This document shows positions 18,509 to 33,157 of a stretch of 33,157 nt of DNA, piece by piece. Every line of letters begins with the position of its first letter. Within the stretch, counting starts at the first letter, position 1. Under the pieces are notes generated by a model that was not told where the DNA came from, searched no databases, and saw only the letters and a list, made by a program, of their open reading frames with translations. Position numbers and translations under genes: made by a program. Origin of the DNA: Pirellulales bacterium (GTDB lineage: Bacteria > Planctomycetota > Planctomycetia > Pirellulales > JADZDJ01); assembly GCA_035499655.1 (NCBI GenBank), contig DATJYL010000180.1:1-33157 (forward strand), written 5' to 3'.

Positions 18509-18534
18509 GCGGCCAAAGCGTCTAGCGACACGTC

Positions 18535-18637: not shown

Positions 18638-18680
18638 TAGAGCACCCAAGTTTGTTCTTATTGCTCTACGGTGCTGGAAT

Positions 18681-18767
18681 CGGCAATCGGTTTTGCTAGA
18701 CTGATTGCCGTTCGCCTTGGCGAACAATCTAGCCCGTGGACTACCTGCCCCAGTTCACGGGCTTTTT
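18681..18767 (+). terminator. Three abutting hairpins ending in a rho-independent terminator
   Basis: Stem 1 is CGGCAATC / GATTGCCG (18681-18710), stem 2 TTCGCC-TT-GGCGAA (18711-18724), and stem 3 AGCCCGTGGAC / GTTCACGGGCT (18731-18763), the last followed by a T run. It lies between the truncated tRNA and the first element gene. It probably stops transcription from the native tRNA promoter, and could equally be a structured small RNA or leader. Confidence 0.6.
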
Positions 18768-18792
18768 CACGTAGCTTGGGGAAGCTCTGCAA

Positions 18793-19734: not shown

Positions 19735-19740
19735 TCAGGC

Positions 19741-19944
19741 TTAGCCGATTGCCGCTTTCACTGTCGCAACGTCACTTCGAGTTATCTGCAATTTGTGACC
19801 ACCTAGCAGCAAAATCCAGCAAGCAAAATCGGTGGTCTCTGTAATGCCGACGATGGAAGAAACCAGCACGGTGTTTACCGGCTGTTCGGTCCTGCCATAA
19901 TCGCCTTGCATTTCCGGGCTTTTGAATGAGATTGTTTTCGCCAT
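19741..19944 (-). CDS. Small protein of unknown function, 67 aa
   Basis: The start is backed by a strong Shine-Dalgarno (GGAGGG about 8 bp before the ATG at 19944). The product (MAKTISFKSPEM... to SDVATVKAAIG) has a polar N-terminus and a hydrophobic middle (ETTDFACWILLLGGHKLQI) that looks like beta strands more than a membrane helix. No family is recognised. It ends 6 bp from the convergent gene stop at 19734 and is the last gene of the minus-strand cluster. Confidence 0.65.
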   Translation of the reverse strand: MAKTISFKSPEMQGDYGRTEQPVNTVLVSSIVGITETTDFACWILLLGGHKLQITRSDVATVKAAIG

Positions 19945-20052
19945 GATCTACCCTCCGTGGTAAATGCTGTTTTCGTACCGACACAAACGGACAGTAGAAA
20001 CAATGGAACGAAAAGTCAATTGCTAGCATTCATTCAACGAAAAGCCCGCGAT

Positions 20053-20991
20053 TTATTTCCGATCCGGCCACAATTGCAATAATTTATGCACTAGGCCCGT
20101 ATCACGTATTAGACGTGAGCGTTTGACCTGAATAAATTTTCGGCCGCCACTGCCTAGACGTTCGCTCACAATTTTTCGGCTCTTTGATCTAAGCCCCTTC
20201 CGCATTTCAAGAAAACACATGAAGCCATTGGAATTGCGGTAACGCTGCAAATGAATGATTCGGCGGGGCGGAAAAATACGAATGTTTCGTGCCGATTGCT
20301 CTACCTTCTCAATTACTAGATCGTTTCGTTTTGCCGTTTTCGCAAAAGCACTACCAAGCCAAGAAAAGTTATAAACATCGTAGTAGCGACTTGATCGCAA
20401 CTGCTTTCGAGCTTTCGGCGTGCCGATTTGTTCCGCCTCTTGCTCCTCCTCATTCCAGTTTCCAAACCTTGTTACCACGGTCCACAGCGGCGAATGTTGC
20501 GGAGTTAGTTTGCCATTTCGTTTTTTCCGGCGATTGAATCCACGGGGCGGAACATAAAGTTTTTGAAGTCGTATCGCTTGCCGTAATGTCACTCTATCGC
20601 CGGTTAGGCTATTAACCCATTCACGATATGCCTTGACGGTCTTACGGTCATTCGTTTCAATCGCGGCCTCAATCAGATAGTTTGCAGACGTGGCAGAGAC
20701 ATTAGCCGAACCAATGATGGCACGGCTACCAATCACAAATACTTTCGCGTGCAAATTTTCGACCGAATGAACATTCACGCCTTTGCGAAGCATCGCAACT
20801 ACGGCTGTCGGATTTGTCTGCCCGGCACGAACCGCCCGTTCGCTCATATCAATAACAAGTGTGCTGCCACTGTTCAGCGGTAATAGTTGTGCTGAACTGA
20901 AATAGGCAACAGCGACGGTAGACCGTCGTTTCGTCTGCTTGGCACGAGCCGTAATTTCTTTCCACACTCGCCCGGTTATGAGTTTTTGCAT
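20053..20991 (-). CDS. PLD-family nuclease-like protein with one HKD-type motif, 312 aa
   Basis: HAKVFVIG at residues 81-88 followed by GSAN at 94-97 is the phospholipase D superfamily half-site. The usual Asp eight residues into HxKxxxxD is Gly88 here. Single-motif members work as dimers and include nucleases such as Nuc and BfiI-type restriction enzymes. The C-terminal two thirds is strongly basic (RGFNRRKKRNGK, KGLRSKSRK), as expected for nucleic-acid binding. ATG 20991 was chosen over an upstream extension that would run through the terminator of the gene above. It may be a defence or processing nuclease; I cannot tell. The Asp change makes activity uncertain. Confidence 0.75.
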   Translation of the reverse strand: MQKLITGRVWKEITARAKQTKRRSTVAVAYFSSAQLLPLNSGSTLVIDMSERAVRAGQTNPTAVVAMLRKGVNVHSVENLHAKVFVIGSRAIIGSANVSATSANYLIEAAIETNDRKTVKAYREWVNSLTGDRVTLRQAIRLQKLYVPPRGFNRRKKRNGKLTPQHSPLWTVVTRFGNWNEEEQEAEQIGTPKARKQLRSSRYYDVYNFSWLGSAFAKTAKRNDLVIEKVEQSARNIRIFPPRRIIHLQRYRNSNGFMCFLEMRKGLRSKSRKIVSERLGSGGRKFIQVKRSRLIRDTGLVHKLLQLWPDRK

Positions 20992-21028
20992 CGGTGTATT
21001 ATGATCCACCCTTTCGGGCCAAACAAAC

Positions 21029-21056
21029 AAAAAAACCCCGGCGAAATGCCGGGGTT
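21029..21056 (-). terminator. Rho-independent terminator, minus strand
   Basis: Stem AACCCCGGC (21034-21042), loop GAAAT, and GCCGGGGTT (21048-21056). On the minus strand it is followed by a run of seven T. It ends the transcript of the gene at 21087-21371 and separates it from the PLD-like gene. Confidence 0.85.
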
Positions 21057-21086
21057 GTGAAGGGTTCAGAATCGAATTCGCCAAGT

Positions 21087-21371
21087 TTAGACAGACAGAC
21101 TAACACCGCTTCGCTTACCGTGAACGAACGCCAGATATTCGCCCGCCTTCCGTTTCGGCAACCTATCGACCGTCCCCAATTGGAACCGCTGCACTAATCG
21201 CAGCACGTCGGCGTCGGTAAGCCGAATACAGTTCCGATAAAGCACGGTTTCCCTACGCATACCGTCATGCTCTTTGAAAATGATCGGCTCACCCGCTTTG
21301 CTTAGCCGCCGATTGATTTTGTCGATCAAGTTGTACGTGATTTCGACCGGATTTTTCGTAGCAACTGCCAT
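21087..21371 (-). CDS. Small protein of unknown function, 94 aa
   Basis: ATG 21371 has AAGGGG about 7 bp upstream on the minus strand, which decides this start over an earlier in-frame one. The protein (MAVATKNPVEITYNLIDK... ending GKRSGVSLSV) is mixed-charge and likely soluble, with a helical ADVLRLVQRFQLG stretch. No family recognised. It lies between a strong terminator and the next small gene, in the same minus-strand transcript. Confidence 0.65.
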   Translation of the reverse strand: MAVATKNPVEITYNLIDKINRRLSKAGEPIIFKEHDGMRRETVLYRNCIRLTDADVLRLVQRFQLGTVDRLPKRKAGEYLAFVHGKRSGVSLSV

Positions 21372-21421
21372 GATTTGCCCCTTAAAAATGGGAACGGAAA
21401 ACGACACTAAAACTTAGCTTG

Positions 21422-21715
21422 TTATCCGGCTGCCCGCTCAAACGTCCGCCGATAGCTCTTGCGTTGTGGCTCTACGGCCCGTGCGGACGTAGTAGCGAAC
21501 GCGGGCGGCAGAAAATTGCAATCGCGGATTTCGCAATATGCACTCTCGCCGTTCGATTTGTAGTAGCCCCGGCCGCCGCAAACGATAGTGCGGCCGGATT
21601 GCAGCACTTCCGTAATTTGCGTTACGCTGTACCCCGTGCCGTCCGCCATATCGAAAACGTGGTATTCCAGCGAATCAATCGAGCGGCGTTCCTGTGTTGC
21701 GACGAGAATTTTCAT
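21422..21715 (-). CDS. Small protein of unknown function, 97 aa
   Basis: The ATG at 21715 follows GAGGG at a suitable distance. MKILVATQERRSIDSLEYHVFD opens with a beta strand; CGGRGYYKSNGESAYCEIRDC carries three Cys spaced over about 20 residues, but not in a recognised zinc-finger pattern. The basic C-terminus suggests nucleic-acid contact, though this is weak. Its start lies 13 bp from the micro membrane gene upstream in the minus-strand transcript. Function unknown. Confidence 0.6.
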   Translation of the reverse strand: MKILVATQERRSIDSLEYHVFDMADGTGYSVTQITEVLQSGRTIVCGGRGYYKSNGESAYCEIRDCNFLPPAFATTSARAVEPQRKSYRRTFERAAG

Positions 21716-21728
21716 CGGTGTTGCCCTC

Positions 21729-21827
21729 TTAAAGTGAAAGAATCAAGGCGACTAAAAAGAACACAATCGCGGCCACCACTAACAAGCCAAGCCAATCCGA
21801 TAAACGTGGTTTGCGACCGTAAAACAT
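21729..21827 (-). CDS. Micro membrane protein 2, 32 aa
   Basis: The product starts MFYGRKPRLSDWLG and the rest is one membrane helix (LLVVAAIVFFLVALILSL). It aligns over its whole length with the peptide encoded just upstream at 21832-21924 (M-aromatic, basic residues, SD-aromatic, GLL, hydrophobic helix, ILA/ILS). No clear Shine-Dalgarno; the start is 4 bp after the previous stop, so translational coupling is likely. Confidence 0.55.
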   Translation of the reverse strand: MFYGRKPRLSDWLGLLVVAAIVFFLVALILSL

Positions 21828-21831
21828 TGTG

Positions 21832-21924
21832 TTAAGCCAGAATGAAAGCGAATGCCAAAAAGCCGAATACGACAACCGCAAGTAGGCCGAAATAATCCGA
21901 TTGCTTTGGTGCTCTGCTATACAT
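21832..21924 (-). CDS. Micro membrane protein 1, 30 aa
   Basis: ATG 21924 follows TAGGAG at about 10 bp, a good ribosome site. The peptide starts MYSRAPKQSDYFGLL and continues as a single hydrophobic helix ending FAFILA. It is a clear homologue of the 32-residue peptide downstream, so this is a small tandem duplication. Single-helix micro proteins of this size include type I toxin-like peptides and membrane regulators; no more can be said. Confidence 0.6.
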   Translation of the reverse strand: MYSRAPKQSDYFGLLAVVVFGFLAFAFILA

Positions 21925-21962
21925 GGTTGATTGCTCCTATACTTGTTATTTAGCACGTACAG

Positions 21963-22052
21963 GCTAACTAGCAAGCGTTCTTTAGCAATTACTGGCGAAT
22001 TCGCAAGTATTTTCGGATTACCGGCCGTTACAATCGCTACTTGCTAACTAAC
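21963..22052. promoter_or_regulatory. Divergent control region with inverted CTTGCTARYTARC boxes
   Basis: GCTAACTAGCAAG at 21963-21975 and CTTGCTAACTAAC at 22040-22052 are inverted copies matching at 11 of 13 positions. They lie between the minus-strand cluster (first start 21924) and the small HTH gene (22074), and are the obvious candidate operators for that regulator. Confidence 0.5.
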
Positions 22053-22073
22053 AACTACGGGGTATAGTTGGGT

Positions 22074-22277
22074 ATGAGCGTAAGCGACGATTTGCGAACG
22101 ATTGCCAACAAAGCCCTACAGCGGGGCGATTACACGGTTTATTCACTGGCGAAAGCCAGCGAAGTAGAGCAATCGGTTTTGCACCGCTGGATAGCGGGAA
22201 CCGATCTAGCCGTTAAGACACTTCACAAGGTTGCGAAGCCGTTGGGCTATGATGTTATTTTGCGAAAGCAATCCTAA
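22074..22277 (+). CDS. Small helix-turn-helix protein, 67 aa
   Basis: ATG 22074 was chosen over a TTG two codons earlier. YTVYSLAKASEVEQSVLHRWIAG is a recognisable helix-turn-helix of the XRE/Cro type: scaffold helix, short turn, then the recognition helix with SVLHRW. TDLAVKTLHKVAKPLGYDV is the usual following helix of small phage-type repressors. It is divergent from the minus-strand cluster with inverted boxes between them, so it probably represses that side, itself, or both. Its stop overlaps the next start (TAATG), meaning the membrane protein downstream is co-translated. Confidence 0.8.
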   Translation: MSVSDDLRTIANKALQRGDYTVYSLAKASEVEQSVLHRWIAGTDLAVKTLHKVAKPLGYDVILRKQS

Positions 22278-22432
22278 TGAGCGACGATTTAGAAGATGAT
22301 GTCATAACTAACATCATCGTAAACACGCCGGAAGATGATGCCGCCTACGCTGGCCCCGGCAAATGGTTGCTAGTTTCTGGCGTTGTGGTCGCTGTTGCCG
22401 TGGCTTTGTTCGCCATTCTGAAAGCCCGATAG
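22277..22432 (+). CDS. Single-helix acidic membrane protein, 51 aa
   Basis: The ATG shares its A with the stop of the HTH gene, which argues for real coupling. The N-terminal 28 residues are acidic (MSDDLEDDVITN and TPEDDAAY), then a transmembrane helix (WLLVSGVVVAVAVALFAIL) ends in KAR, predicting the acidic part outside or inside by the positive-inside rule with the C-terminus cytoplasmic. No family is recognised. A repressor coupled to a membrane peptide suggests a membrane-linked regulator or an immunity-type function; that is inference. Confidence 0.6.
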   Translation: MSDDLEDDVITNIIVNTPEDDAAYAGPGKWLLVSGVVVAVAVALFAILKAR

Positions 22433-22473
22433 CAGTTGAACGCATCTAAGCGGCGGCCAACAGAGAATAATTT

Positions 22474-22518
22474 GCCCGCAAATTTTTTCAGAATCTTGCT
22501 TGCTTGTTGCGGGCTTTC
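22474..22518 (+). terminator. Hairpin terminator after the HTH/membrane pair
   Basis: GCCCGCAA (22474-22481) and TTGCGGGC (22507-22514) form an 8-bp stem with a 25-nt loop and TTTC after it. The remaining part of 22433-22736 shows no gene and no further signal I can support. Confidence 0.45.
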
Positions 22519-22736
22519 ATGCGGCGGGCTTCAATTGACCGGACCCGGTGCCGAGTCAACCTAGATGGAAAATTGCATTTCAGGCCGAACAAAGAGCCGG
22601 GCCACCTGCGGATAAAAACGATTGTGTTGCCGAGTTTGAAATAACCCTATCCCCTAGTTATCGCCGCTGGTTGCTTGCCAGTTGCACGTTAAGAGCTAAC
22701 GTACTGAACATCGCAGAGATTGATTGCGTGCAATCG

Positions 22737-23333
22737 TCAGCTAGACAGAATGTCATACACTGTCGGCCGACTTACTTGGCAAGTGCGGGCGATTGCTGCG
22801 ATGGATTCGCCCGCGTGATGTAGCTTGCGGATGGCTCTTGCTTTGGCCAGCACAGACTTATTACGATGGCCAGCTTTGCGACCGCCCCAAGATTTGCCGG
22901 CTGCTAATGCAGCAGAAATACCAGCGGTTTGCCGCTCGCGTCTAACCTCAGTTTCGTATGCAGCTACGCCCGTTAAGATGGTAGCGGTCAATCGTCCCTC
23001 TTTAGTCAACAAATCGAACGATTCTTTAATGCTTGTCAGCGTTACCTTGCGACGGATCAACTCATCATACAATTGAGCAAGCCCGCTAACAGTTCTGCCA
23101 AGGCGGTCTACCCGCCAAACAATAATCCGATCAATCTTGCCGGCCAACACGTCGGCCCATAGTCGATTCCATTCGGGCCGATCCATGTTAGTGCCAGTTG
23201 CCTTATCGACATACCAAACAGCATCAACGTCGTAAGCATCGACGTACCGCCTCAAATCAGCATCTTGGCTACGGGTGTTTTGGCTATGGCTGGACACCCG
23301 GACGTACACGGCGGTTTTCTTGTCGGTTTGCAT
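22737..23333 (-). CDS. Small serine recombinase (resolvase/invertase family), 198 aa
   Basis: YVRVSS with the nucleophile Ser14 opens the catalytic domain; IIVWRVDRLGRTVSG (residues 70-84) is the second signature with catalytic arginines. The acidic helix E region ends in RRERQTAGISAALAAGK, and the C-terminal segment (ESIAAIARTCQVSRPTVYDIL) is the DNA-binding helix-turn-helix. The length matches resolvases and invertases, not large integrases. AGGAG precedes the ATG at 23333. It may resolve replicating multimers of the element, or invert a segment; no duplicated recombination sites were recognised with confidence. Confidence 0.93.
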   Translation of the reverse strand: MQTDKKTAVYVRVSSHSQNTRSQDADLRRYVDAYDVDAVWYVDKATGTNMDRPEWNRLWADVLAGKIDRIIVWRVDRLGRTVSGLAQLYDELIRRKVTLTSIKESFDLLTKEGRLTATILTGVAAYETEVRRERQTAGISAALAAGKSWGGRKAGHRNKSVLAKARAIRKLHHAGESIAAIARTCQVSRPTVYDILSS

Positions 23334-23494
23334 GATTGATTCTCCTATCTCAATAATGCTTCACAGCGTCAGAATGTCAAATTTAGAGTAGACAATTGAT
23401 TAGACTATCTTTTGCAGTAAAACACTGGCAAAAGTGCCACGATTTACAACCGAAACGGCCGGGAACACCAAATTTTACACAATCGAGTTTCACC

Positions 23495-23869
23495 ATGAAT
23501 CAATACGAACCCGGCCAACGATGTTTCGAGCTACAAGGGGCCGATGGCCGGCGGTTTGTCGGCTATGGGCCGGCGGGTGACAGTCTGCCGTGGCAGCGGT
23601 TGCTGTATCACCCGAACCATACCCGCATCGGACGGTCACTACGGCTATGGTTTGCGACAGCGAAGCCCGTGGCATTGACGGGTACGATGCCATCAATCGC
23701 CGTAACCACGTCGGAAGCCACGGCGGTGGTTCGCATCCGACAGCGGATGTTGACAGCAGCGGGTATCGAGCTTCTACAGCCTGATAAGCACAGATACCCC
23801 GCACGCAATCCTAATCAGGCACGCGGTAAGAACGGCCGTTACATTCGTCGTTTGCCAGACGGCAGCTAA
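23495..23869 (+). CDS. Unknown protein, 124 aa
   Basis: The frame is open from 23396, but the ATG at 23495 (MNQYEPGQRCFELQGADGRR) is the first plausible start. The protein has a GRRFVGYGPAGD loop, a basic middle and a basic C-terminus (ARGKNGRYIRRLPDGS), so nucleic-acid binding is conceivable. It is divergent from the serine recombinase (about 160 bp between) and just upstream of the origin-like region. No family recognised. Confidence 0.5.
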   Translation: MNQYEPGQRCFELQGADGRRFVGYGPAGDSLPWQRLLYHPNHTRIGRSLRLWFATAKPVALTGTMPSIAVTTSEATAVVRIRQRMLTAAGIELLQPDKHRYPARNPNQARGKNGRYIRRLPDGS

Positions 23870-24023
23870 TGCAAGCTGTGGGCATTTTACGACACACAAC
23901 CGTGACCGATGGTCAAGCAACCGCGAGGTTGCGTTTCTCCGCGATTGAACACTATCGAAATCGCCGAGTCAGCAAGCCTGATAACCGAAATTTCTTCAGC
24001 CGGGCGGCCGGCCGGTTCAGGGG

Positions 24024-24139
24024 TGTCACGACTTGTCACGGCTTATAAACAACTTTTCTCTATACCTAAAATATCTCCCCTAGGGGAGAACTTTTTTTCT
24101 CTTAGAAAAGTCTATTGGAAGCCGTGACAAGTCGTGACA
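24024..24139. other. Candidate replication origin: 21-bp inverted repeat of TGTCACG iterons around an AT-rich core
   Basis: A perfect 21-bp repeat occupies 24024-24044 and, inverted, 24119-24139. Each arm consists of two direct units, TGTCACGACT and TGTCACGGCT, so four iterons face each other. The 74-bp core is AT-rich and contains the palindrome CTCCCCTAGGGGAG and a T run. A P4-type helicase gene starts 0.8 kb downstream. Iteron pairs plus an unwinding region next to a helicase gene are typical of origins; a large operator is the alternative. Confidence 0.6.
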
Positions 24140-24185
24140 GCAACCCCAGCCTACCCTCTGCACCGGCCGGCGGGAAAAAATTTGT

Positions 24186-24212
24186 AAGCCTGTTGGACCA
24201 TGCAACAGGCTT
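24186..24212. terminator. 10-bp perfect hairpin in the origin region
   Basis: AAGCCTGTTG, a 7-nt loop, and CAACAGGCTT. On the minus strand a T run follows some bases later, so it may be a terminator for that strand, or part of the origin structure. The rest of 23870-24286 holds no gene I can support. Confidence 0.35.
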
Positions 24213-24286
24213 CCCTGAGCTTTCTCCTTTTTATGCAAAAACGCCTTTGCAGCCGGCAAAACAGCCCCATGTTTTTTGCGTGAAGT

Positions 24287-24305
24287 CTATTACCATCGGT
24301 AATAG
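24287..24305. promoter_or_regulatory. Perfect 8-bp dyad CTATTACC-ATC-GGTAATAG, candidate operator
   Basis: It is the first symmetrical site upstream of the replication operon, about 250 bp before the start at 24551, and resembles a repressor operator. The regulator is not identified. Confidence 0.4.
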
Positions 24306-24346
24306 AATCGGTGCAAACTCGAAAAAATAATTTGAAAATCGTTCGA

Positions 24347-24483
24347 GAATTCCTGATAAAAACGCTCGATTTGGACCCATCTACTGTTGTACCGAGAAAG
24401 GGTTCACACTCACAAAATAAATCCACAACTTTCCACGATTTCCTGAAAAAAAGTCCGTTTTTGGACCGTTCTACTCTTGTACC
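24347..24483 (+). repeat. Two direct 47-bp repeats with a 90-bp period
   Basis: 24347-24393 and 24437-24483 match at about 36 of 47 positions with no gap (shared: TTCCTGA, TTGGAC, TCTACT, TTGTACC). The frame through both is open, and the period is a multiple of three, so they could encode a repeated peptide (EFL...LDPSTVVP and DFL...LDRSTLVP) if translation began at GTG 24311. They may instead be protein-binding or leader elements. Confidence 0.5.
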
Positions 24484-24550
24484 CGAGAAGTGTCATCCGT
24501 CAGTCCATCGTGCTCCGCATTCGCGGTCGCACTCCGTAATGAGGTTCGCC

Positions 24551-24838
24551 ATGCTAGTTCAATTCCTGAATGAAAAGTTTGTTGTCGCCGATGGCCAGAG
24601 TACGCCGTACCGCGAATTTGTCGAAGCCTTCCATCGCTACTTATTCGACAACGGCGTATGCCCGACCGAATGGCCCGAAAAGAAAATCAAGGCGGCACTT
24701 CAAGCCGAAAAGTTTGTTATCGGAACTGGTCCCGAAGGATTGCTCATTGTTGGCAATCTTCTCAATCCCCGAACCAGCAAAAAGCGTTGGGTCAAACATC
24801 CGAGCGATAAGTACCGACTAACGCTTGATCGAAAATAA
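24551..24838 (+). CDS. Winged-helix-like small protein of the replication operon, 95 aa
   Basis: ATG 24551 has GAGG six bases upstream, deciding this start over ATG 24539 and over GTG 24311, which would add an N-terminal repeat region. MLVQFLNEKFVVADGQSTPYREFVEAFHRYL ... EKKIKAALQAEKFVIGTG looks like a winged helix of the kind found at the C-terminus of D5/P4 primase-helicases, here as a free protein. It precedes the helicase gene by 93 bp. A DNA-binding or helicase-loading role is plausible but unproven. Confidence 0.65.
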   Translation: MLVQFLNEKFVVADGQSTPYREFVEAFHRYLFDNGVCPTEWPEKKIKAALQAEKFVIGTGPEGLLIVGNLLNPRTSKKRWVKHPSDKYRLTLDRK

Positions 24839-24864
24839 CCGGTTGCGGCCCGGTGGGGTGTTTT

Positions 24865-24926
24865 CACCTGCACTCCATCGGGCATTTCTTTCTCAGGTGG
24901 AATCGAAAGCAGGTGATATTCAGGTG
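24865..24926. promoter_or_regulatory. Cluster of four CAGGTG boxes before the helicase gene
   Basis: CAGGTG occurs at 24894, 24910 and 24921 on the plus strand and inverted (CACCTG) at 24865-24870, giving an 8-bp pair TCACCTGC/GCAGGTGA. The last box doubles as the ribosome site AGGTG before ATG 24932. This suggests autoregulation of the helicase by a protein that covers its ribosome site. Confidence 0.4.
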
Positions 24927-24931
24927 AACGA

Positions 24932-26653
24932 ATGATCGAAAATTTTTGTAGGGAATTAGAAATCGAATTCTCTGGCAAGCGTGCTTGTGTATCGTGGGCG
25001 AAAGCCCAACAGCTTGCGAAGAAATTGAATCAGGATAACCGTGAACTACCCGGTGAGGCCATCTTCAATAATGAGCCTGTCATATTGGAGAAATTGTCGG
25101 CGGATGGCAAACAGGGCATACGCTTTCGCATTGATGGCCGATTTTGGCAGGACGGTAAACCAAGGGCCATCGACGGTTGGGTTCCGCATGATAAATATCG
25201 AAGTATTGATCTGTGGGTGCCTGCTCCTGAGACCACCACCCTGGAGGCAATCAATAATCCGACCTTCCTGGCTCGCAGTGCCATCAACAAAGTATTTAGC
25301 CGTCCCTTGATAATTGAAGGCGTGGCCGATAAATCAATCTGCACGCTGCTATTTGCTCAAGAGACATTCTACCGGCACGATGGCCGTTGCTGGGTGCCAA
25401 CACCGGACCATGAAATGTTCCAGACGCTCTGGGAACATGTTGAACTAGCGTTTCTCGAATATAAGAAGAAACACAACTGTGGTGATTCTCCGCTGACACG
25501 GATTAGTACCGGCCTTGTAAACGACGCAATGCACAGTTTGCGTGTTGCGGTTAAGACAAAAAAGAAACCCGGTCAATGGCTTGATAATAGAAAGGATGAT
25601 CCCAGCCATTATCTCGTCTGCGAAAATGGCATAATCGACTTGTCCAAAGATGAATCTAGGTTCTACCCGCACGATATAAATTTCTTTGCAACATCCATGT
25701 TGCCGTGGAGCTTTGACCCGAATGCTCCTAAGCCTGCCCGCTGGTTGCAATGTTTAGATGAGTGGTGGCCCAACAATCCTGAGTGCCACAAACTCTTGCA
25801 AGAGTTTCTTGGATATAGCCTCACGACACCGTGGCTACACGTGTTCTTTGTACTCTGCGGTGCCAAACGTGGCGGCAAAGGCGTCATTGCCCGCGTACTT
25901 CAAGATATTATTGGACCTGGCAACTATGCCGCTTTAACGCTGCATCGACTGGGCGATAAAAATGCGTTGGAATCGGGCATCAATAAGCGGTTGCTCTTTT
26001 TCCCTGAAACGAATTGGGGCCAGTTTGGTCCCGAAGCCCGCGAAATCCTAGCGGCAATTTCTGGACGTGATGCCGTGGAAGTAACCGCAAAATATAAAAC
26101 GGCACTTACGACTGATAATTGGGGCGTGTGCGTAATAACCTCCAATTCAATTCCGCATTTTCAAGATGTCAGCGGCAAATTGGAATCGCGGATGATCTTG
26201 TTGCGGTTCATCGAATCGTTTGCCGAGAAACCCGACCCACACTTAAACGAAACACTCAAGAAAGAACTACCTGGAATCATTCGGTGGGCCATCGACGGTT
26301 GGAAGCGTGTGCAACAGACAGCAAAGTTCACGCGGCCCGATTTGTGTCAAGAAATTGTGCAATTGGTGGTTGACGATAGTAATCCAATTCAAGAGTGGGC
26401 CGCTGAGAATTGTACTGTTGCCCCGAATGCTAAAGGCGACAAAGCGGAATTGTACGATAGCTACCGACGATGGTGCGAAGTACGGTCGTTAGACGTTCCC
26501 CGTCGTCAAACATTCTGCACGGAGTTGCTCGACGCTTTTCCAAAATTGCGGCCGGGCCAAATGCGAATTCCCAACGAGAAAGTAATGCGAATCTTCAAGG
26601 GCATCGCTCTTAAATCTGAATCGCCCATAACTAAGGAACAATCCCATGCTTGA
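24932..26653 (+). CDS. D5/P4-type superfamily 3 replicative helicase, 573 aa
   Basis: The family unwinds DNA at element or phage origins and often includes a primase domain. Walker A is GAKRGGKG (residues 310-317), Walker B LLFFPET (354-360), and motif C VCVITSN (399-405); a D5_N-like region precedes them (HYLVCENGIIDL, EFLGYSLTT). The tail contains a winged-helix segment (ELYDSYRRWCEVRSLDVPRRQTFCTELL). I do not see a primase active site in the N-terminal 200 residues, so it may be helicase-only, with priming from the host. It overlaps the next gene by 8 bp. It is the main evidence for autonomous replication of the element. Confidence 0.9.
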   Translation: MIENFCRELEIEFSGKRACVSWAKAQQLAKKLNQDNRELPGEAIFNNEPVILEKLSADGKQGIRFRIDGRFWQDGKPRAIDGWVPHDKYRSIDLWVPAPETTTLEAINNPTFLARSAINKVFSRPLIIEGVADKSICTLLFAQETFYRHDGRCWVPTPDHEMFQTLWEHVELAFLEYKKKHNCGDSPLTRISTGLVNDAMHSLRVAVKTKKKPGQWLDNRKDDPSHYLVCENGIIDLSKDESRFYPHDINFFATSMLPWSFDPNAPKPARWLQCLDEWWPNNPECHKLLQEFLGYSLTTPWLHVFFVLCGAKRGGKGVIARVLQDIIGPGNYAALTLHRLGDKNALESGINKRLLFFPETNWGQFGPEAREILAAISGRDAVEVTAKYKTALTTDNWGVCVITSNSIPHFQDVSGKLESRMILLRFIESFAEKPDPHLNETLKKELPGIIRWAIDGWKRVQQTAKFTRPDLCQEIVQLVVDDSNPIQEWAAENCTVAPNAKGDKAELYDSYRRWCEVRSLDVPRRQTFCTELLDAFPKLRPGQMRIPNEKVMRIFKGIALKSESPITKEQSHA

Positions 26654-27296
26654 CTATCATGCTGAAGTAAAACAAATATCTGAGCGGGTATTGCCGCACG
26701 CCCGTAAACTGGTCGGTCGTGGATATGCCATACGGCATCAAGATGGTAACTGGACAGGGCGGTATGCAAAATCCTTTACAAAATCCTATCTTCAAAACCA
26801 TTGCGGTATAACGGGCCAATGGGAATTGATGGTTGCGTTCAGTGAAATGAATGAATGCCCGCAAACACTCTGGCTTCTGAATGCTGCAAAACGTCCATTG
26901 GTTCTACCGACCGAAAATGACGTTGCGAAGATTAAAGCAGAGCATTCGCCGTGGCTGAATGATGCGTGGTTCCACGAAGTCGTGGAATGTTGCGAGTACC
27001 TACATCATTGCGAACAAACGTCACGGTGCAACGCGGGTAGTTATGGCCTAAAGCACTGTGTTGAAGAACGTGCCTATGCACTGGGCATTTGGCCGGGTTA
27101 TGTCGGTTCAGATTCGTTCACAATAGCGGCCATGTTTTGCGGTTTCGATTGGAAACGGAATGGGTCGGATTCATGGGTATCGGTCAGGGGAAAAACCTTG
27201 CCCGATTTGAATTGCCCCCGACACCCGGACCTTATCACAAAGGAAACGAATAAACCCATTTCAATTTATGGAGTGCCACAATGTTTACAGGACTAA
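26646..27296 (+). CDS. Cys-rich protein of unknown function, 216 aa
   Basis: It starts inside the helicase gene and overlaps the ATPase gene, so it belongs to the replication operon. Cys and His are unusually frequent: VECCEYLHHCEQTSRCNAG, SYGLKHCVEE, MFCGFDW, LNCPRHPD. Metal binding is possible. The SYGLKHCVEE ... GSDSFTIAAMFCGFDWKR pattern resembles a domain of conserved unknowns that I associate with planctomycete mobile elements, without a known activity. Confidence 0.65.
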   Translation: MLDYHAEVKQISERVLPHARKLVGRGYAIRHQDGNWTGRYAKSFTKSYLQNHCGITGQWELMVAFSEMNECPQTLWLLNAAKRPLVLPTENDVAKIKAEHSPWLNDAWFHEVVECCEYLHHCEQTSRCNAGSYGLKHCVEERAYALGIWPGYVGSDSFTIAAMFCGFDWKRNGSDSWVSVRGKTLPDLNCPRHPDLITKETNKPISIYGVPQCLQD

Positions 27297-27811
27297 AACG
27301 TCAATTCGCTATTGGGTTAGGCAGGGGTATGGCAAATGCGGTCAGTCCGCCCCCAACTCTTACTGCCGTAATTGGAAACCCCGGCTCTGGCAAATCGTGT
27401 TACGCCCTGAATTTGAACGGACAAACCCGCCATTCGCTTTTAATAGACACGCACAATGCCAAGGATACTTTGGTTGAACGGCTTCAACAAATAAAATCCC
27501 GCTTCAACAGTGAAATTTGGTGGCGGCGGGGCGAAGATTGTTCGCTACGATCTGTTTTTGAGTATCTCGAAAACCATTGCATGGCCAATCATGTAATCTT
27601 GGATGCACTGTGGAGTTTTGGTGCCGGCGAACGAATTCCTTCATTGCTCCGCCGACTAAAAGCGTTCGGTGAAAAGGTGGGCGTCTCGTTTGTAGTTGTC
27701 CATGATCGGGATTCTAAGGCCATTCGCCGCTACTGTGATACTGTGGTTGATCTTCGCAAGCATTCATTCAATTTTCCAAAATGGACCATGAAAAATGAAC
27801 AGCATACCTGA
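27281..27811 (+). CDS. Small P-loop ATPase, 176 aa
   Basis: GNPGSGKS at residues 32-39 is a clean Walker A, and HVILDALWSF a likely Walker B-like strand (Asp without the following Glu). VSFVVVHDRDSKAIRRYCDTVVDLRK forms the later strands with a sensor-like residue. At 176 residues it is a minimal ATPase, similar in size to helicase loaders or RecA-like fragments. It lies in the replication operon between overlapping neighbours, so helping the helicase or segregation is inferred. Confidence 0.72.
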   Translation: MFTGLKRQFAIGLGRGMANAVSPPPTLTAVIGNPGSGKSCYALNLNGQTRHSLLIDTHNAKDTLVERLQQIKSRFNSEIWWRRGEDCSLRSVFEYLENHCMANHVILDALWSFGAGERIPSLLRRLKAFGEKVGVSFVVVHDRDSKAIRRYCDTVVDLRKHSFNFPKWTMKNEQHT

Positions 27812-28067
27812 CAACGGACCCCAGCAAGCGACACCATACCAAATTTGGGAAGTGCTTTCGCTTGTGTTGTCCCCGGAACGTGCCGGGGAATGCCTTGACT
27901 ACGCCATCGCTGAAAAATCCAAAACAGATTTGGAACGTGACTTTATTGCAGAGCTACGCGGACTGGCAGCGTGGTTAGAAACCGAAAGTTATTACCTTGA
28001 ACCGTCGTTGAAGTACCCGAGCCAAGCGGCGGCCCAACTTATTCAAGCAACGGTGCCGAAAAACTAA
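27795..28067 (+). CDS. Small helical protein, 90 aa
   Basis: Overlaps the ATPase gene by 17 bp and is the last gene of the replication operon, before a terminator. It is predicted helical (QIWEVLSLVLSPERAGECLDYAIAEK, DFIAELRGLAAWLETE). No family recognised. It may be an adaptor for the ATPase. Confidence 0.6.
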   Translation: MNSIPDNGPQQATPYQIWEVLSLVLSPERAGECLDYAIAEKSKTDLERDFIAELRGLAAWLETESYYLEPSLKYPSQAAAQLIQATVPKN

Positions 28068-28114
28068 ACCATACCTTGTTGGCAGTTTCGTACTTGTTCC
28101 TGCCAACACTCCGG

Positions 28115-28152
28115 CGGCGGCCTGCGATTTCCTCTCGCCCGGCCGCCGTTTT
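28115..28152 (+). terminator. Rho-independent terminator after the replication operon
   Basis: CGGCGGCC (28115-28122) and GGCCGCCG (28141-28148) form the stem with an 18-nt loop, then TTTT. A second 9-bp hairpin, TGTTGGCAG / CTGCCAACA, lies just upstream (28077-28108). The stem core GGCGGC recurs in two later hairpins. Confidence 0.7.
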
Positions 28153-28245
28153 CAAAATCATCCTGCCGGCAACTTATGCCCTGCCGGCCGGCGGCCCTTG
28201 TGTCCGGTTCCGCAAGGGTCGCCATTAAATCAACTGAGGTTCCCC

Positions 28246-28437
28246 ATGCGTCCATTCAGAATCTTCAAACTCGCCCGCGATGCCTGCGGTTATAACTTGC
28301 AAGTCCACCTTCCATCCGCACGTTTGCAATGCCAGTTCTTGTACGAAAATTTTATTTCCGGCTGCGGATGGTCACTGGCACTTGCACCGATGGCCGCAAC
28401 CTTGCTTGGCATCCTCAAAGCATTCCATCTTTTTTAA
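28246..28437 (+). CDS. Small protein with a hydrophobic C-terminus, 63 aa
   Basis: ATG 28246 follows GAGG at about 8 bp. The first half is basic and mixed (MRPFRIFKLARDACGYNL), and the second is hydrophobic (GWSLALAPMAATLLGILKAF), probably a membrane helix. It sits between two terminator-like hairpins, so it is expressed separately or by read-through. Function unknown. Confidence 0.5.
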   Translation: MRPFRIFKLARDACGYNLQVHLPSARLQCQFLYENFISGCGWSLALAPMAATLLGILKAFHLF

Positions 28438-28448
28438 TCTTCCTTGTT

Positions 28449-28503
28449 TGCTGGCGGCCGGCATTAACCTTTTGTCCGGGGCCAACCAGCCGCCAGCATT
28501 TTT
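28449..28503 (+). terminator. Long-loop hairpin terminator (10-bp stem, T run)
   Basis: TGCTGGCGGC (28449-28458) and GCCGCCAGCA (28489-28498) pair perfectly, followed by five T. The 30-nt loop is GC-rich in its second half. It separates two small genes. Confidence 0.75.
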
Positions 28504-28517
28504 CCAACGGTGACAAC

Positions 28518-28796
28518 GTGACACTACTTCAAGAATTTATCGCCGCGAATCCCGGCCTTGATCCGGTTACAAATTTTTCATTGTTCCATGATAAGTATTG
28601 TCAACTATGTCGGCGACGTGCGGCCCCTCAACCTACGCCCGCCGATCTCAAACTCGAATTGAGTTTCACGCCGGGAAGTAATTGCACGTTAGACGATAAC
28701 GCCCGATTGCCGTGGCTCTTTGATCGTACTGGCGACAGCCGTAAAGATGTTGACCGAGACGGCAAGCTCATCATCGGCGAACCCAAGAATTCCTAA
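28518..28796 (+). CDS. Small protein of unknown function, 92 aa
   Basis: The frame is open earlier, but that would run through the terminator; GTG 28518 with GGTGA just before it gives VTLLQEFIAANPGLD. It has one CxxC (YCQLCRRR) and a polar, Asp-rich C-terminus (FDRTGDSRKDVDRDGK). The start codon is uncertain. A hairpin AAGCAGC / GCTGCTT follows (28795-28822). No family recognised. Confidence 0.45.
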   Translation: MTLLQEFIAANPGLDPVTNFSLFHDKYCQLCRRRAAPQPTPADLKLELSFTPGSNCTLDDNARLPWLFDRTGDSRKDVDRDGKLIIGEPKNS

Positions 28797-28861
28797 GCAG
28801 CACAATTGATCGGTAGCTGCTTCCAATACCGGTCATCCATTTCAGTAGAGGTTTAATTCCA

Positions 28862-29140
28862 ATGAGTAATTCTGTTGCCGTCGATAAACTGTTGACGGTT
28901 TTTCCCGAACACCCCGAACAATTGCAAGGCGACAATGCCACGTGGTACCTGATTTTGCAGTTGCTCAATTCTGACCAAACCGGTTCGGATGGCAGTACCA
29001 ATGTTTTTGAGGAAATTTTCAATCGTCTTGCTACGGTTGCTCCCCGCAATCATTACGTGGTCCGGCAGTTCGCCGAATTCTGTTCACAATACGAAAAGAA
29101 ATTCTCGTCTCACGTTCCGTCCGCAAACTTTTCATCCTGA
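28862..29140 (+). CDS. Small protein of unknown function, 92 aa
   Basis: ATG 28862 has AGAGG upstream. MSNSVAVDKLLTVFPEHPEQLQ starts a mostly helical protein (FEEIFNRLATVAPRNHYVVRQFAEFCSQYEKK). No motif recognised. Part of the co-directional small-gene series. Confidence 0.55.
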   Translation: MSNSVAVDKLLTVFPEHPEQLQGDNATWYLILQLLNSDQTGSDGSTNVFEEIFNRLATVAPRNHYVVRQFAEFCSQYEKKFSSHVPSANFSS

Positions 29141-29187
29141 GTCAGCTTGGCGGGGGAGAATCAATCTAACCAATAGGAAACCATACC

Positions 29188-29472
29188 ATGCCCGATGACA
29201 AACCAGTATTCACACCGTTTGAGCTTCAAGAAAAATTGAACGCTCAAGCGGAGAAGCACGCGGCCGATGTTGCCGCAATGAAAGATCGACAAGCCCAAGA
29301 GTTAGCCGCCGCCCAGGATAAAATTGATGAATTGAGTCAGATTGCTAATTCCGTGCGATTGGCGAACGGCAAGGTGGACTACAAAAAACTCTTGGAGCGG
29401 CCAGAAGATTACATGGCACTCAGGTCAAGCCGAGCGGGCCGCCGGTTACTTAACTTGAAGCCAAATAACTGA
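29188..29472 (+). CDS. Coiled-coil small protein, 94 aa
   Basis: ATG 29188 follows AGGAAA. Residues 10-50 are Ala/Glu/Gln/Lys-rich helix (EKLNAQAEKHAADVAAMKDR and onwards) with heptad-like spacing; the rest is short and basic (RAGRRLLNLKPNN). It stands 11 bp before the scaffold-like gene, so the two may work together. Confidence 0.6.
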   Translation: MPDDKPVFTPFELQEKLNAQAEKHAADVAAMKDRQAQELAAAQDKIDELSQIANSVRLANGKVDYKKLLERPEDYMALRSSRAGRRLLNLKPNN

Positions 29473-29483
29473 GGTAAATAAAT

Positions 29484-30221
29484 ATGGAAACGGAAACAGA
29501 AAAGAAAAGTCTGCCCGAAATTCTCGGCCACGAAATTGACGATGCCACGCAAAAAAATTTGAACTCCTACTTTGCCGAGGTTAGGCGTAGAGAGGAATCG
29601 AAAGCCAAGCGTTTGGCGGAACAAGAATTCGCTGAGCGTTCTGTTAAGGCGAATGAAGCTCTTGCGAATGCAGAGAAACTAGCCCAAGAACGGGAAGCCC
29701 TCGCCAACGAAAAAGATTCGTTGACCAAATTGGTTGCCGAATTAGAGGGAAAGCATTCTGAGGCCAACAAGGAAATTGAAACCTTACGCAAGACGGTTAA
29801 AGACGAAAGAACGGCCTTGCAACGCTTCGTAGATTCGTCACGCATTCAAAATGAAGCAGCTAACGCAGCCGAGTGGAGCAACCCAGCGGCGGCAGAATGG
29901 TTTCAGTCCAAGTGTTCGATTGACGGTGAAAATGTTGTCGTGACATTGGGCGACGAAAGCCTACCCGTCGATACAGCGGTTGCTAAGTTGCGTGCTGACC
30001 AACAATTTTGGCCGCTATTTAAGGCCGACAAAAATGGTGGTACTGGCAGCCACAACGGTTTCGACGGTCAAAGTACAGGCGGTTTGATCGGCCGCAATCA
30101 CAAGATCGACCCACGCCAAGCAATCGCGTCTAAAGAGGCGACTGAAACTTGGATGAACGAGAGAAAAAAAGCCCGGGCGGGTGATAAATTGGCTGCTGCT
30201 CGCATTGGTTACAACAAATAA
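29484..30221 (+). CDS. Coiled-coil protein resembling a phage scaffold, 245 aa
   Basis: Residues 30-118 are a long charged coiled coil rich in Glu, Lys and Ala (KRLAEQEFAERSVKANEALA and onwards). It is followed by a compact domain (EWSNPAAAEWFQ ... NVVVTLGDESLPVDTAVAKL) and a tail FKADKNGGTGS. This order, a helical rod, a short alpha/beta domain, and a GGTGS-type tail, is that of gp20/DUF4355-type capsid scaffolds and minor structural proteins. No capsid gene is nearby, so a scaffold of a helper phage, or a satellite decoy, is possible. Start ATG has GAGG upstream. Confidence in the fold is moderate, in function low. Confidence 0.6.
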   Translation: METETEKKSLPEILGHEIDDATQKNLNSYFAEVRRREESKAKRLAEQEFAERSVKANEALANAEKLAQEREALANEKDSLTKLVAELEGKHSEANKEIETLRKTVKDERTALQRFVDSSRIQNEAANAAEWSNPAAAEWFQSKCSIDGENVVVTLGDESLPVDTAVAKLRADQQFWPLFKADKNGGTGSHNGFDGQSTGGLIGRNHKIDPRQAIASKEATETWMNERKKARAGDKLAAARIGYNK

Positions 30222-30331
30222 TGTCGGCTATTGATACTCAACGCCGACACTTTTCAGCCGGTGACGGTGCCGGTCGGCTGAGGCGGTGTGCGATGCCGCT
30301 CGTCGGACACCATTTTCAAACCATGTTCTGC

Positions 30332-30389
30332 GTCTGGCGGCGGTTTACAACAACCAATGTCTCGGTATCGGCCGTCGCCAGACGTTTTT
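30332..30389 (+). terminator. Long-loop hairpin (12-bp stem with one G-U) and T run
   Basis: GTCTGGCGGCGG (30332-30343) pairs with CCGTCGCCAGAC (30372-30383), followed by GTTTTT. It lies 17 bp before the start at 30406 and shares the GGCGGC stem with the hairpins at 28115 and 28449. The small open frame here (30221-30403) is considered doubtful. Confidence 0.6.
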
Positions 30390-30405
30390 CTAACGGTGAA
30401 TGATT

Positions 30406-30840
30406 ATGCAGTACAAGAGTAATGACGAAGCAACGCAAAACGCATTGATCGAATTGGCATCGAACGCCGATGACCCGGCGGCCATCGGCCATGAATTGAA
30501 TGTTGCCAGAGCACTTCTCAATCAGTGCCTTGCTGAGGGTCGCACTGGGCGGCCCGATGCGATTGCATTGCTGAGTGTGCTAACTCGAATGGCGAAAGAG
30601 TTTGATAGGCAAGCTCTAAGAGCACAGTATCTCTTACCCATTCCCGCTGTTGAAAGATTATTTCGTGAAGTGGAAGAATGTTTGGTACTTCAATTTCAAG
30701 ACGTTCCCGGTTGGCAGGAGCGGAGCCTAAAAGCATATCACTTATTTCAGCAACGTCTTGCTGAGGGAATTAGTAATCCCGCCGAAATGAAGCAGGCTAA
30801 ACGCCTGTGCGATTTAAGAAATAATGGCGGTTCAAAATGA
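30406..30840 (+). CDS. Helical protein of unknown function, 144 aa
   Basis: ATG 30406 has GGTGA seven bases upstream; ATG 30400 is the alternative. It is nearly all helix (ALIELASNADDPAAIGHELN and then ALRAQYLLPIPAVERLFREVEECLV). The pattern of an early regularly spaced helix pair, then a YLLPIPAVE segment, recalls small packaging or DNA-binding proteins of phage type, without a firm match. It overlaps the next gene by 4 bp. Confidence 0.55.
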   Translation: MQYKSNDEATQNALIELASNADDPAAIGHELNVARALLNQCLAEGRTGRPDAIALLSVLTRMAKEFDRQALRAQYLLPIPAVERLFREVEECLVLQFQDVPGWQERSLKAYHLFQQRLAEGISNPAEMKQAKRLCDLRNNGGSK

Positions 30841-31061
30841 CCTACACAACAGAACAGCTATCGCAGATTCGACAACTACAGAACGCCATCAATACGTTTG
30901 AACGTGCGAAATTAGAAATCCACCCCGACAATCGCAGTGAATATGACCGGCTACTGGCCAATCTGAGGCGGCAGTTGAAGGAACTGCAAACCGGTATGAG
31001 CATTATTTACGAAGGGGGCGGTGCGGAGAGTTTTAGAATTACTTTGTCGCCCCAGGGCTGA
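30837..31061 (+). CDS. Short coiled-coil protein, 74 aa
   Basis: It starts inside the previous stop (ATGA overlap). A helical hairpin (QLSQIRQLQNAINTFERAK and DRLLANLRRQLKELQTG) is followed by a Gly-rich tail. Coupled expression with the gene upstream suggests a joint function. Unknown family. Confidence 0.55.
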   Translation: MTYTTEQLSQIRQLQNAINTFERAKLEIHPDNRSEYDRLLANLRRQLKELQTGMSIIYEGGGAESFRITLSPQG

Positions 31062-31077
31062 TTTATGAGGAGCTATC

Positions 31078-31308
31078 ATGTACCAAACAATAAAACATGA
31101 GCCATACACGGCAGCACAGTCGGCCCGCGTGTGTCAACTCATCCGCTATGAGAAAATTAAAGAGCGGAAAAGACTTATCCGTATCGCACGGGCAGTGTTT
31201 AGCAACTCTCCCCGGTTACAAGAGTTCATAAAACGGATGGCCGACAACAGCGTTGAAGCCGGTGGGCTGCCCCAGCAATCTCCCGATACGCAACTGCCCC
31301 AGCAGTAA
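31078..31308 (+). CDS. Basic small protein of unknown function, 76 aa
   Basis: The ATG follows GAGGAG, a good ribosome site. The middle is strongly basic and helical (RYEKIKERKRLIRIARAVF), the tail Gln/Pro-rich. DNA or RNA binding is plausible. Confidence 0.6.
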   Translation: MYQTIKHEPYTAAQSARVCQLIRYEKIKERKRLIRIARAVFSNSPRLQEFIKRMADNSVEAGGLPQQSPDTQLPQQ

Positions 31309-31323
31309 GCTAGACTTTTCATC

Positions 31324-31800
31324 ATGGGGGATTTCCGCCACTATCTGAAATCGCAAATTGCCAAGCTCGCGGCGTTGGAAAACCGTGGCCGTGGTTTGAC
31401 TGACAATGACGTGATATTGCCGCTGCTGGCAAAAACCTTCAATGAGCAAACCAAGATTTTCAATCAGATACGGGCTAGAGCGTTGACGGATGGCTATCCG
31501 CAGATTGCGAGAATGATCGACGCAATACCTGAAACGGAACCAATCAAACGGCAACACGAAGCGGTTTCAGGGTGCTTGGCATTGGTTACACCGCCTAGTG
31601 AATCTGAAGCCAGTACGCCGTTGACCGTGGCACAGGCCGCCAAGCAAATGAACATTTCTCAACGCAAGGTGTACGATTTGTGCAAAAAGGGTTTGTTGCG
31701 TCATACAACAAACCCTATTCGCATTCGACCGGCCGATATTGAAGCCTTCCAAGCTAGGCAGCGTGACCCTTCTCCGGTGGCTTTGCGTCATTTGCGTTGA
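31324..31800 (+). CDS. Excisionase-like DNA-binding protein, 158 aa
   Basis: Residues 99-145 (LTVAQAAKQMNISQRKVYDL ... IRIRPADIEAFQ) form the winged helix-turn-helix of the HTH_17/excisionase family, as in AlpA- and Xis-type proteins. The N-terminal 95 residues are helical and unusual for excisionases, which are often below 100 residues. The gene converges with the integrase and overlaps it by 47 bp, the classical int/xis arrangement. It probably directs the integrase to excision. No clear Shine-Dalgarno before the ATG at 31324. Confidence 0.72.
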   Translation: MGDFRHYLKSQIAKLAALENRGRGLTDNDVILPLLAKTFNEQTKIFNQIRARALTDGYPQIARMIDAIPETEPIKRQHEAVSGCLALVTPPSESEASTPLTVAQAAKQMNISQRKVYDLCKKGLLRHTTNPIRIRPADIEAFQARQRDPSPVALRHLR

Positions 31801-32776
31801 CAAACTTTTCAAGTTGTTCCCGCAACTCGTCACGCTTCAAGTTAAGGTGACTATAAACGTCCATAATCATTTTTAGCGAACGGTGGCCCATAACTTCAGC
31901 AAGCTTAATCGGGTCCATTCCGGCCAGTAGCATATCGGTGCAAAACGTGTGGCGGATGGCGTAAGGGTACAATGGCACTTTCAGTTTCTTGGCAAATTTT
32001 CGGCAAGCGTGGCCCATAGCGGGGTGCGTCCACGGCCTGCCCTTTTGGTTTCGGAATATCGTCCCCGTAGGATGCTCTGCCGCTAGCCGCTGAACAATTT
32101 CAAAGGCTTTGGCCGTCAACGGTATCACGCGGCGATATCGTTTCCCTTTGCTTTTCTTGGCAGCGAATACGATATGCTTGCCGTCGATGTTCGATGCTTC
32201 AATCTGTCGCAATTCAAACGGCCGGCAGCCGGTTTGACGTAGGAAAAGAATCGCGTCCTGAAACGGACCCGGTTTCATGCTTTCGATGATCGTCTGCCAT
32301 TGTTCCGGTGTTATGTATACTTCGCGGGGCTGGGGCCGTGGTTGCTTGCATTTCGCTACAGGCGAATAGGGTATGTAGCCCTCATCAACAGCGTGCTTGA
32401 ACGCTCTTTTCACCGATCCGACAGCACCATACTTGAACGTATCCCCGCCCTTTACTGTCGATAGCCATTGGGTTACGTGGTAAGGCCGCAAATCGGCAAC
32501 GCGAATTTGCTTGCCAATGAAATCGACAAACGATTGAAGGTGTTCTTTGTAAAACTTGTACGTCCGGGGTGCTCGATTTGCTTTACACCATTCAAGGAAT
32601 TGGTCGATTACGGCAGCGGCCGTGCCTTCCGGTGTCGGCTCTTGATGCCCGGCCAGCAATTCGTGATACTTTGCAAGGGCGGCGGCCTTGTTCCTGCCCA
32701 GGTTTATCTGCTTACCTTTGAATTGCAGATAGTACGACTGTGTTTGGGTGCGAAAAAATGGTTTCGGAATTCTCAT
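31754..32776 (-). CDS. int: Tyrosine recombinase (integrase), 340 aa
   Basis: It inserts and, with an excisionase, removes the element at tRNA-His. Catalytic residues: Arg185 in TGCRPFELRQIE, the Lys-rich beta turn near 207-212, Tyr272-x-x-Arg275 in PYAIRHTFC (Tyr in place of the first His, as in many integrases), His298-Arg299 in VMGHRSLK, and the nucleophile Tyr308 in DVYSHL. A SAM-like N-terminal core-binding domain (FLEWCKANRAPRTYKFYKEH) follows an arm-binding start. ATG 32776 has AGGGG upstream; an extension to 32833 would run into the arm sites. It is divergent from the tRNA. Confidence 0.95.
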   Translation of the reverse strand: MRIPKPFFRTQTQSYYLQFKGKQINLGRNKAAALAKYHELLAGHQEPTPEGTAAAVIDQFLEWCKANRAPRTYKFYKEHLQSFVDFIGKQIRVADLRPYHVTQWLSTVKGGDTFKYGAVGSVKRAFKHAVDEGYIPYSPVAKCKQPRPQPREVYITPEQWQTIIESMKPGPFQDAILFLRQTGCRPFELRQIEASNIDGKHIVFAAKKSKGKRYRRVIPLTAKAFEIVQRLAAEHPTGTIFRNQKGRPWTHPAMGHACRKFAKKLKVPLYPYAIRHTFCTDMLLAGMDPIKLAEVMGHRSLKMIMDVYSHLNLKRDELREQLEKFVNANDAKPPEKGHAA

Positions 32777-32790
32777 TGCGTTTCCCCTGT

Positions 32791-32837
32791 GCAAATGTAG
32801 ATCGTGCTCGAAACTCTGCACGAATCTCTGCATTTGC
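32791..32837. promoter_or_regulatory. Right-end candidate integrase arm sites with a 12-bp tandem repeat
   Basis: CGAAACTCTGCA (32809-32820) and CGAATCTCTGCA (32821-32832) are direct neighbours differing at one base. GCAAATG (32791-32797) and CATTTGC (32831-32837) form an inverted pair around them. They lie between the integrase start and the tRNA promoter, and share motifs with the left end at 18535-18637. Confidence 0.5.
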
Positions 32838-32850
32838 GAGGAAATCGCCC

Positions 32851-32879
32851 GTGACGCTTCCGACGTAAACCCTTATACT
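32851..32879 (+). promoter_or_regulatory. Element-borne promoter of the reconstituted tRNA-His
   Basis: GTGACG at 32851-32856, 17-bp spacer, TATACT at 32874-32879, about 11 bp before the tRNA. The sequence differs from the native promoter at 18424-18452 but keeps the spacing. Because it is inside the element, the tRNA is now expressed from foreign DNA. Confidence 0.55.
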
Positions 32880-32889
32880 GTCGGTATAT

Positions 32890-32964
32890 GGTGGCTATAG
32901 CTCAGTTGGTTAGAGCACCAGATTGTGGATCTGGGGGTCACGGGTTCGAGTCCCGTTAGCCACC
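32890..32964 (+). tRNA. tRNA-His (anticodon GTG), intact; right attachment site
   Basis: GTGGCTA pairs with TAGCCAC; the D-arm, CCAGA/TCTGG anticodon stem, loop TTGTGGA with anticodon GTG, and a T-arm with GTTCGAG follow. The G at 32890 is the encoded -1 base and faces the C at 32964, both tRNA-His identity elements. The first 40 bases belong to the repeat shared with the left end. Confidence 0.97.
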
Positions 32965-33002
32965 CTGTACATAACATTTAGCCGAAACGCAACTTACGTT
33001 AC

Positions 33003-33065
33003 CTGTCGATGTTCGACAGTGCGGCCCGAAACGATCCGAGAAGCCGGTAGACTACCGGAATCGGA
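33003..33065. promoter_or_regulatory. Two inverted repeats between tRNA-His and the second integrase
   Basis: CTGTCGA-TGT-TCGACAG at 33003-33019, and CCGGTAG-A-CTACCGG at 33044-33058 nested inside TCCGA...TCGGA (33035-33065). The second lies 20 bp before the start at 33086 and is a candidate operator or terminator hairpin. Confidence 0.4.
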
Positions 33066-33085
33066 CCCCTTGGGAGAACCGCACC

Positions 33086-33157
33086 ATGTCGAAGCCCGCC
33101 CCAGTACGCATTCCTTCGTATCGTCGCCACAAACCCACTGAGCAAGCCGTCGTCACT
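33086..33157 (+). CDS. Second integrase, N-terminal 24 residues (partial)
   Basis: The sequence runs off the right edge without a stop. MSKPAPVRIPSYRRHKPTEQ and the following AVVT match the characteristic N-terminus of a planctomycete group of tyrosine recombinases (SYRxHKPxxQAVVT). GGGAG lies upstream at a suitable distance. It is unrelated at its start to the integrase at 31754, so a second element or remnant probably begins here. Confidence 0.6.
   Translation, partial: MSKPAPVRIPSYRRHKPTEQAVVT

Follow-up and report, generated by a model that had tools for sequence, protein, structure and literature searches.

The window analysed here comprises the whole of contig C180 (33,157 nt) from a 4.54-Mb genome assembled in 244 contigs. 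It contains a single tRNA gene: ARAGORN made one call, an intact tRNA-His(GTG) at 32891-32965 on the + strand that scores 72.9 bits against Rfam, and found no second tRNA in the 33,157 nt. The 5' half of this gene is present twice, at 18469-18508 and at 32890-32929, both on the + strand and identical at 40 of 40 positions (BLAST E=1e-15). The repeat starts at the base before the tRNA, the G-1 of tRNA-His, and stops at the last base of the anticodon loop, TTGTGGA, which occupies 32923-32929 in the intact gene and 18502-18508 in the truncated copy. Each copy lies behind a promoter-like sequence of its own. The truncated copy follows TTGCTG-17-TATAAT (18424-18452, +), a site expected 0 times in shuffled sequence, while the intact gene follows GTGACG-17-TATACT (32851-32879, +), the sole promoter-like site within 32700-33100, where 0.2 are expected.

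The DNA between the two copies is designated element A (18509-32889, about 14.4 kb, without assigned strand) and has a G+C content of 0.497 versus 0.571 in the flank. Its genes include a D5-type phage primase-helicase with a D5_N domain (24932-26653, +; PF08706, phrog_6088), an excisionase-like HTH_17 protein (31324-31800, +; PF12728, phrog_66 and phrog_2907) and a tyrosine integrase, integrase A, which is divergent from the tRNA (31754-32833, −; PF00589, phrog_1). The integrase frame is unbroken over its whole length and starts 58 bp from the 5' end of the tRNA; its true start probably lies near 32776, where homologues begin. Element A also encodes a serine recombinase and gives a weak scaffold-like match, and no clear capsid or terminase was present among the frames tested. 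The element is best labelled integrative or satellite-like, with phage-like genes. A PLD-domain protein (20053-21084) and the serine recombinase (22737-23333) occur in the same element as the tyrosine integrase. Searches of GTDB and viral contigs with back-translated peptides recovered no relatives of integrase A, and the 40-bp block was absent from the viral contigs searched.

Comparison with relatives indicates which promoter is native. Upstream of the left-hand promoter lies a chromosomal ThiF-family gene (17280-18365, +; PF00899), and contig C137 of the same-genus genome G001 has the same order: the ThiF gene, then the TTGCTG-17-TATAAT block, conserved over 47 bp, and then one uninterrupted tRNA-His. 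No tRNA-His fragments were found elsewhere in G001, and its C137 locus represents an empty site for the 5' side of the integration. Because G001 carries the left promoter behind ThiF, the left promoter is the native one and the right one arrived with the element. The ThiF-tRNA-His order was seen in G000 and G001 only, so "native" here means native to this genus. The locus combines an adjoining tyrosine integrase, an intact tRNA at one end with a same-orientation fragment at the other and an empty site in a relative, as in tRNA-targeting islands, and the displaced 5' end (18469-18508) lies upstream of 32891 on the same strand, as in islands of the 5'-fragment kind. Two claims of the sequence-only reading are borne out here: that the intact tRNA-His has its promoter and 5' half on the element side, and that the chromosomal promoter was left with the truncated copy.

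As for the origin of the element-borne promoter, the right-hand promoter region resembles the sequence upstream of tRNA-His in the same-family genome G002, where the gene lies beside tyrS; the score is 27, whereas none of 28 other relatives scored above 19 and none of 3000 random 90-mers above 26. This likeness suggests that the promoter and 5' half of element A may have been captured from a related host. We also considered whether the G002 gene had itself been taken over by a 5'-type element and rejected this, given that G002 has no tRNA-His fragment and no integrase evident upstream among the listed frames.

The 3' side of the gene carries a second integrase. Integrase B starts at 33086 (+), is broken by the contig end at 33157 and goes on in frame at the edge of contig C34, where the junction has an 8-bp overlap and gives a single open frame of 409 aa (PF00589). 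The same genome has paralogues of it that start immediately 3' of tRNA-Lys and tRNA-Asn. The genome holds exactly one displaced tRNA-His 3' half (C23:6437-6484), which begins at the anticodon loop. Its T-loop reads TTCAAG, as in the nearest relatives, versus TTCGAG in the intact gene; the C23 base is that of G001, G002 and five other MAG genes, from which the intact gene differs. Since integrase B stands on the 3' side and the C23 half has the relatives' T-loop base, the 3' half of the intact gene (32923-32966, +) probably belongs to element B, a point overlooked when the locus was first read as a takeover of promoter and 5' half. This assignment draws on one base plus the layout, and the link between element B and C23 on the displaced fragment, without continuous sequence in this 244-contig assembly. 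A match between the far flank of element B and the downstream flank in G001 did not materialize: the right flank of C23 is unlike the DNA 3' of the G001 tRNA-His. The cargo of the contig assigned to element B (C34:3-4447, L217) is unusual, with GTPase-associated GAP1-N2 and GYF-domain proteins.

We propose, with a probability of about 0.87, that tRNA-His is a chimera joined at the anticodon loop and produced by a reversed element A and a conventional element B. Element A would have entered the anticodon loop by recombination the reverse way round, through an attachment site that consists of a promoter and the tRNA 5' half in place of the usual 3' half. Its integration would leave the native promoter and truncated tRNA at the far end of the element (18424-18508) and place the rebuilt gene behind the promoter of A, with the integrase gene divergent. 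Element B, whose integrase is unrelated to that of A, would be a conventional 3'-restoring element on the 3' side of the tRNA, and the native 3' half would be the displaced copy on C23. The intact gene would then join the promoter and 5' half of A to the 3' half of B. The A block ends and the B block begins in the anticodon loop (32923-32929, +), which makes it the putative 7-bp crossover region common to both integrations. The 40-bp repeat, both integrases, both displaced halves and the unoccupied 5' site in G001 are read directly from the sequence; from these we predict that strands are exchanged within the 7-nt loop, that the element promoter is active, that C23 is linked to element B and that excision can reverse the process. 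The arrangement most likely allows an element that has captured the 5' half of a tRNA to integrate without lethal effect on its host; such an element must bring a promoter.

Integrase A homologues (E<=1e-40) occur in 61 of 397 genomes of the order. In a tree of 54 homologues, 40 could be scored, having a tRNA no more than 600 bp from where the integrase starts; the integrase faces the tRNA 3' end in 35 of these and the 5' end in five. The 5' cases are scattered on the integrase tree, where a minimum of three to four changes is required to explain them. This genome has displaced 5' halves of Leu-UAA (C1/C112) and Leu-CAA (C154), and relatives have those of Arg-CCU (G055) and Pro-GGG (G166 and G178). 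Counting tRNA-His, this amounts to six 5'-type cases, three of them in this genome, and in every one the block reaches the first base of the tRNA and ends 0-4 nt past the anticodon loop. Both tRNA-Pro cases are sandwiches with displaced 3' halves as well. Their 5'-side integrases are close relatives, whereas those on the 3' side fall in different clades; the two sides are therefore separate elements. Single-sided 5' cases also exist, namely Arg-CCU in G055 and Leu-CAA. The latter (C154:8834-11751, L219) is decayed, with 2.8 kb and a C-terminal integrase fragment left, and its duplicated promoter retains the -35 and -10 in both copies, the spacer having diverged. In G166, a single-contig genome, the displaced tRNA-Pro halves (5' at C1:10806-10847, 3' at 3732287-3732334) lie megabases and 143 kb, respectively, from the intact gene, which suggests either that the elements are very large or that integration was followed by a large rearrangement. 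At another locus (L142; G101:C38:21091-21405), two divergent integrases surround a 314-bp gap that appears to contain the 3' portion of a tRNA gene, but no 5' half to match.

A broader reading, which we regard as doubtful, is that tRNA-His has become wholly mobile DNA through two unrelated integrases acting on one loop in opposite orientations, that such sandwiches recur in the order, and that the elements may trade promoters. In such a trade, the element would give the tRNA a promoter and may receive a host tRNA promoter that reads into its far arm. Downstream of the truncated tRNA, none of the six cases showed a simple terminator. In the Pro and Leu-CAA cases, the frames that come first in the far arm point the wrong way for such a trade.

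Among the alternatives, it is conceivable, although unlikely, that element A alone replaced part of the gene, that the host's own 3' half is still in place at 32923-32966 and that the C23 fragment is an unrelated relic or lies on a foreign contig. C23 lacks a physical link to C34, its flank is unlike the 3' flank of G001, and the two 3' halves differ at one base only. However, integrase B occupies the position of a 3'-type integrase, as its paralogues do, and the displaced 3' half to be expected from such an insertion exists exactly once, begins at the anticodon loop and carries the relatives' T-loop base. A single composite element, with the whole tRNA-His between two integrases as in tRNA-dependent lysogeny, would account for an intact gene that appears wholly element-derived with both native halves displaced, and divergent integrase pairs do surround tRNA-Pro in two other genomes. 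In those sandwiches, however, kindred 5'-side integrases are paired with 3'-side integrases of different clades, which indicates that the sides move independently; together with the single-sided 5' cases and the different families of integrases A and B, this makes a composite quite improbable.

Two further possibilities carry still less weight. The right-hand promoter could be chromosomal and the left one brought by the element, as the likeness to the G002 promoter might suggest, but in G001, of the same genus, it is the left promoter that follows this ThiF gene; moreover, the right promoter lies directly next to the integrase, and the G002 likeness is better read as capture from a related host. 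We consider this highly improbable, and the reservation attached to the sequence-only reading, that the right-hand upstream sequence might prove chromosomal, fails on the evidence of G001. Plain duplication and truncation of the tRNA gene without site-specific integration would explain two partial copies of one tRNA, yet an integrase, an excisionase-like gene and the repeat mark the element ends, the repeat stops at the anticodon loop, and five other tRNA sites show the same layout, leaving this explanation barely credible. The reading we prefer remains that of a reversed element A and a conventional element B meeting in the anticodon loop.

Whether the host depends on the element must be considered in light of a second, divergent tRNA-His(GTG), which lies in an array of tRNA genes on contig C240, retains G-1 and C73 and scores 54 bits; because of it, the window copy is only putatively essential. 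This genome has two such arrays, C240:736-3688 (L041 and L063) with 30 genes and C185:62648-64129 (L042) with seven; each is confined to a single strand, adjoins an HNH endonuclease gene and lies near ordinary metabolic genes, and together they span most isotypes, the divergent tRNA-His among them. The suggestion that the supply of host histidine tRNA depends on element DNA holds for expression during integration, as far as the predicted promoter goes, and is weakened by the C240 copy, which partly bears out the proviso that a second intact tRNA-His might exist elsewhere. Similarly, the idea that the arrangement binds host and element together is only partly supported. Integrase-mediated excision through the anticodon loop is predicted to reunite the native promoter and 5' half with the 3' half, and for this reason the dependence would not be addiction in the strict sense. 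As exact excision should rebuild the native gene, the tie between host and element is weaker than first proposed, and only inexact loss, in which the promoter would go, would be harmful.

Several known systems share parts of this organization. In Islander, 159 of 3919 islands have 5' tDNA fragments (PMC4383910); as in those, a tyrosine integrase is present and the tRNA is rebuilt on one side with a 5' fragment on the other. Unlike those islands, a second element here also takes the 3' half, three 5'-type events occur in one genome, and loss of the native promoter is traced with an empty-site relative. A review of archaeal elements notes that rebuilt tRNAs keep their original promoter with very few exceptions, that pTN3-like integrases use the tRNA 5' half and that such use is rare in bacteria (PMC8371274); integration of pTN3 leaves the tRNA detached from its promoter (PMC5495485). 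Element A resembles the pTN3 type in that attB is the tRNA 5' half to the anticodon region and the original promoter is lost (PMC5495485, PMC8371274). It differs in that pTN3-type integrase genes are split on integration, while integrase A is intact, divergent and bacterial, with a separate predicted promoter. In the tRNA-dependent lysogeny of actinobacteriophages, an essential host tRNA gene is likewise interrupted at the anticodon region, after which its function relies on element DNA (PMC10865867). Those phages have a short core and carry a whole cognate tRNA, and the host gene is not rebuilt (PMC10865867), whereas here the gene is rebuilt at the junction via a 40-bp block and no other tRNA lies in the window. 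Insertion at the 5' end of a gene is also known from dusA-targeting integrases and islands, which differ in having a protein-coding target and another integrase family (PMC4482086). We found no published description of two-sided tRNA replacement in the openly accessible literature, which does not prove its absence. Overall, 5'-type tRNA islands are a known minority, and the proposed two-sided replacement, with its recurrence, represents a new form of them.

The rebuilding of tRNA genes after integration is usually called harmless, because the native promoter is kept. At tRNA-His the promoter has been swapped, and one integrase family gives both layouts, with the reversed cases scattered on its tree. 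This makes it testable whether a switch in orientation needs just the capture of the other tRNA half together with a promoter, and how the expression of an essential gene evolves once mobile DNA owns the gene. Such takeovers may become permanent, as the decay of the Leu-CAA element suggests.
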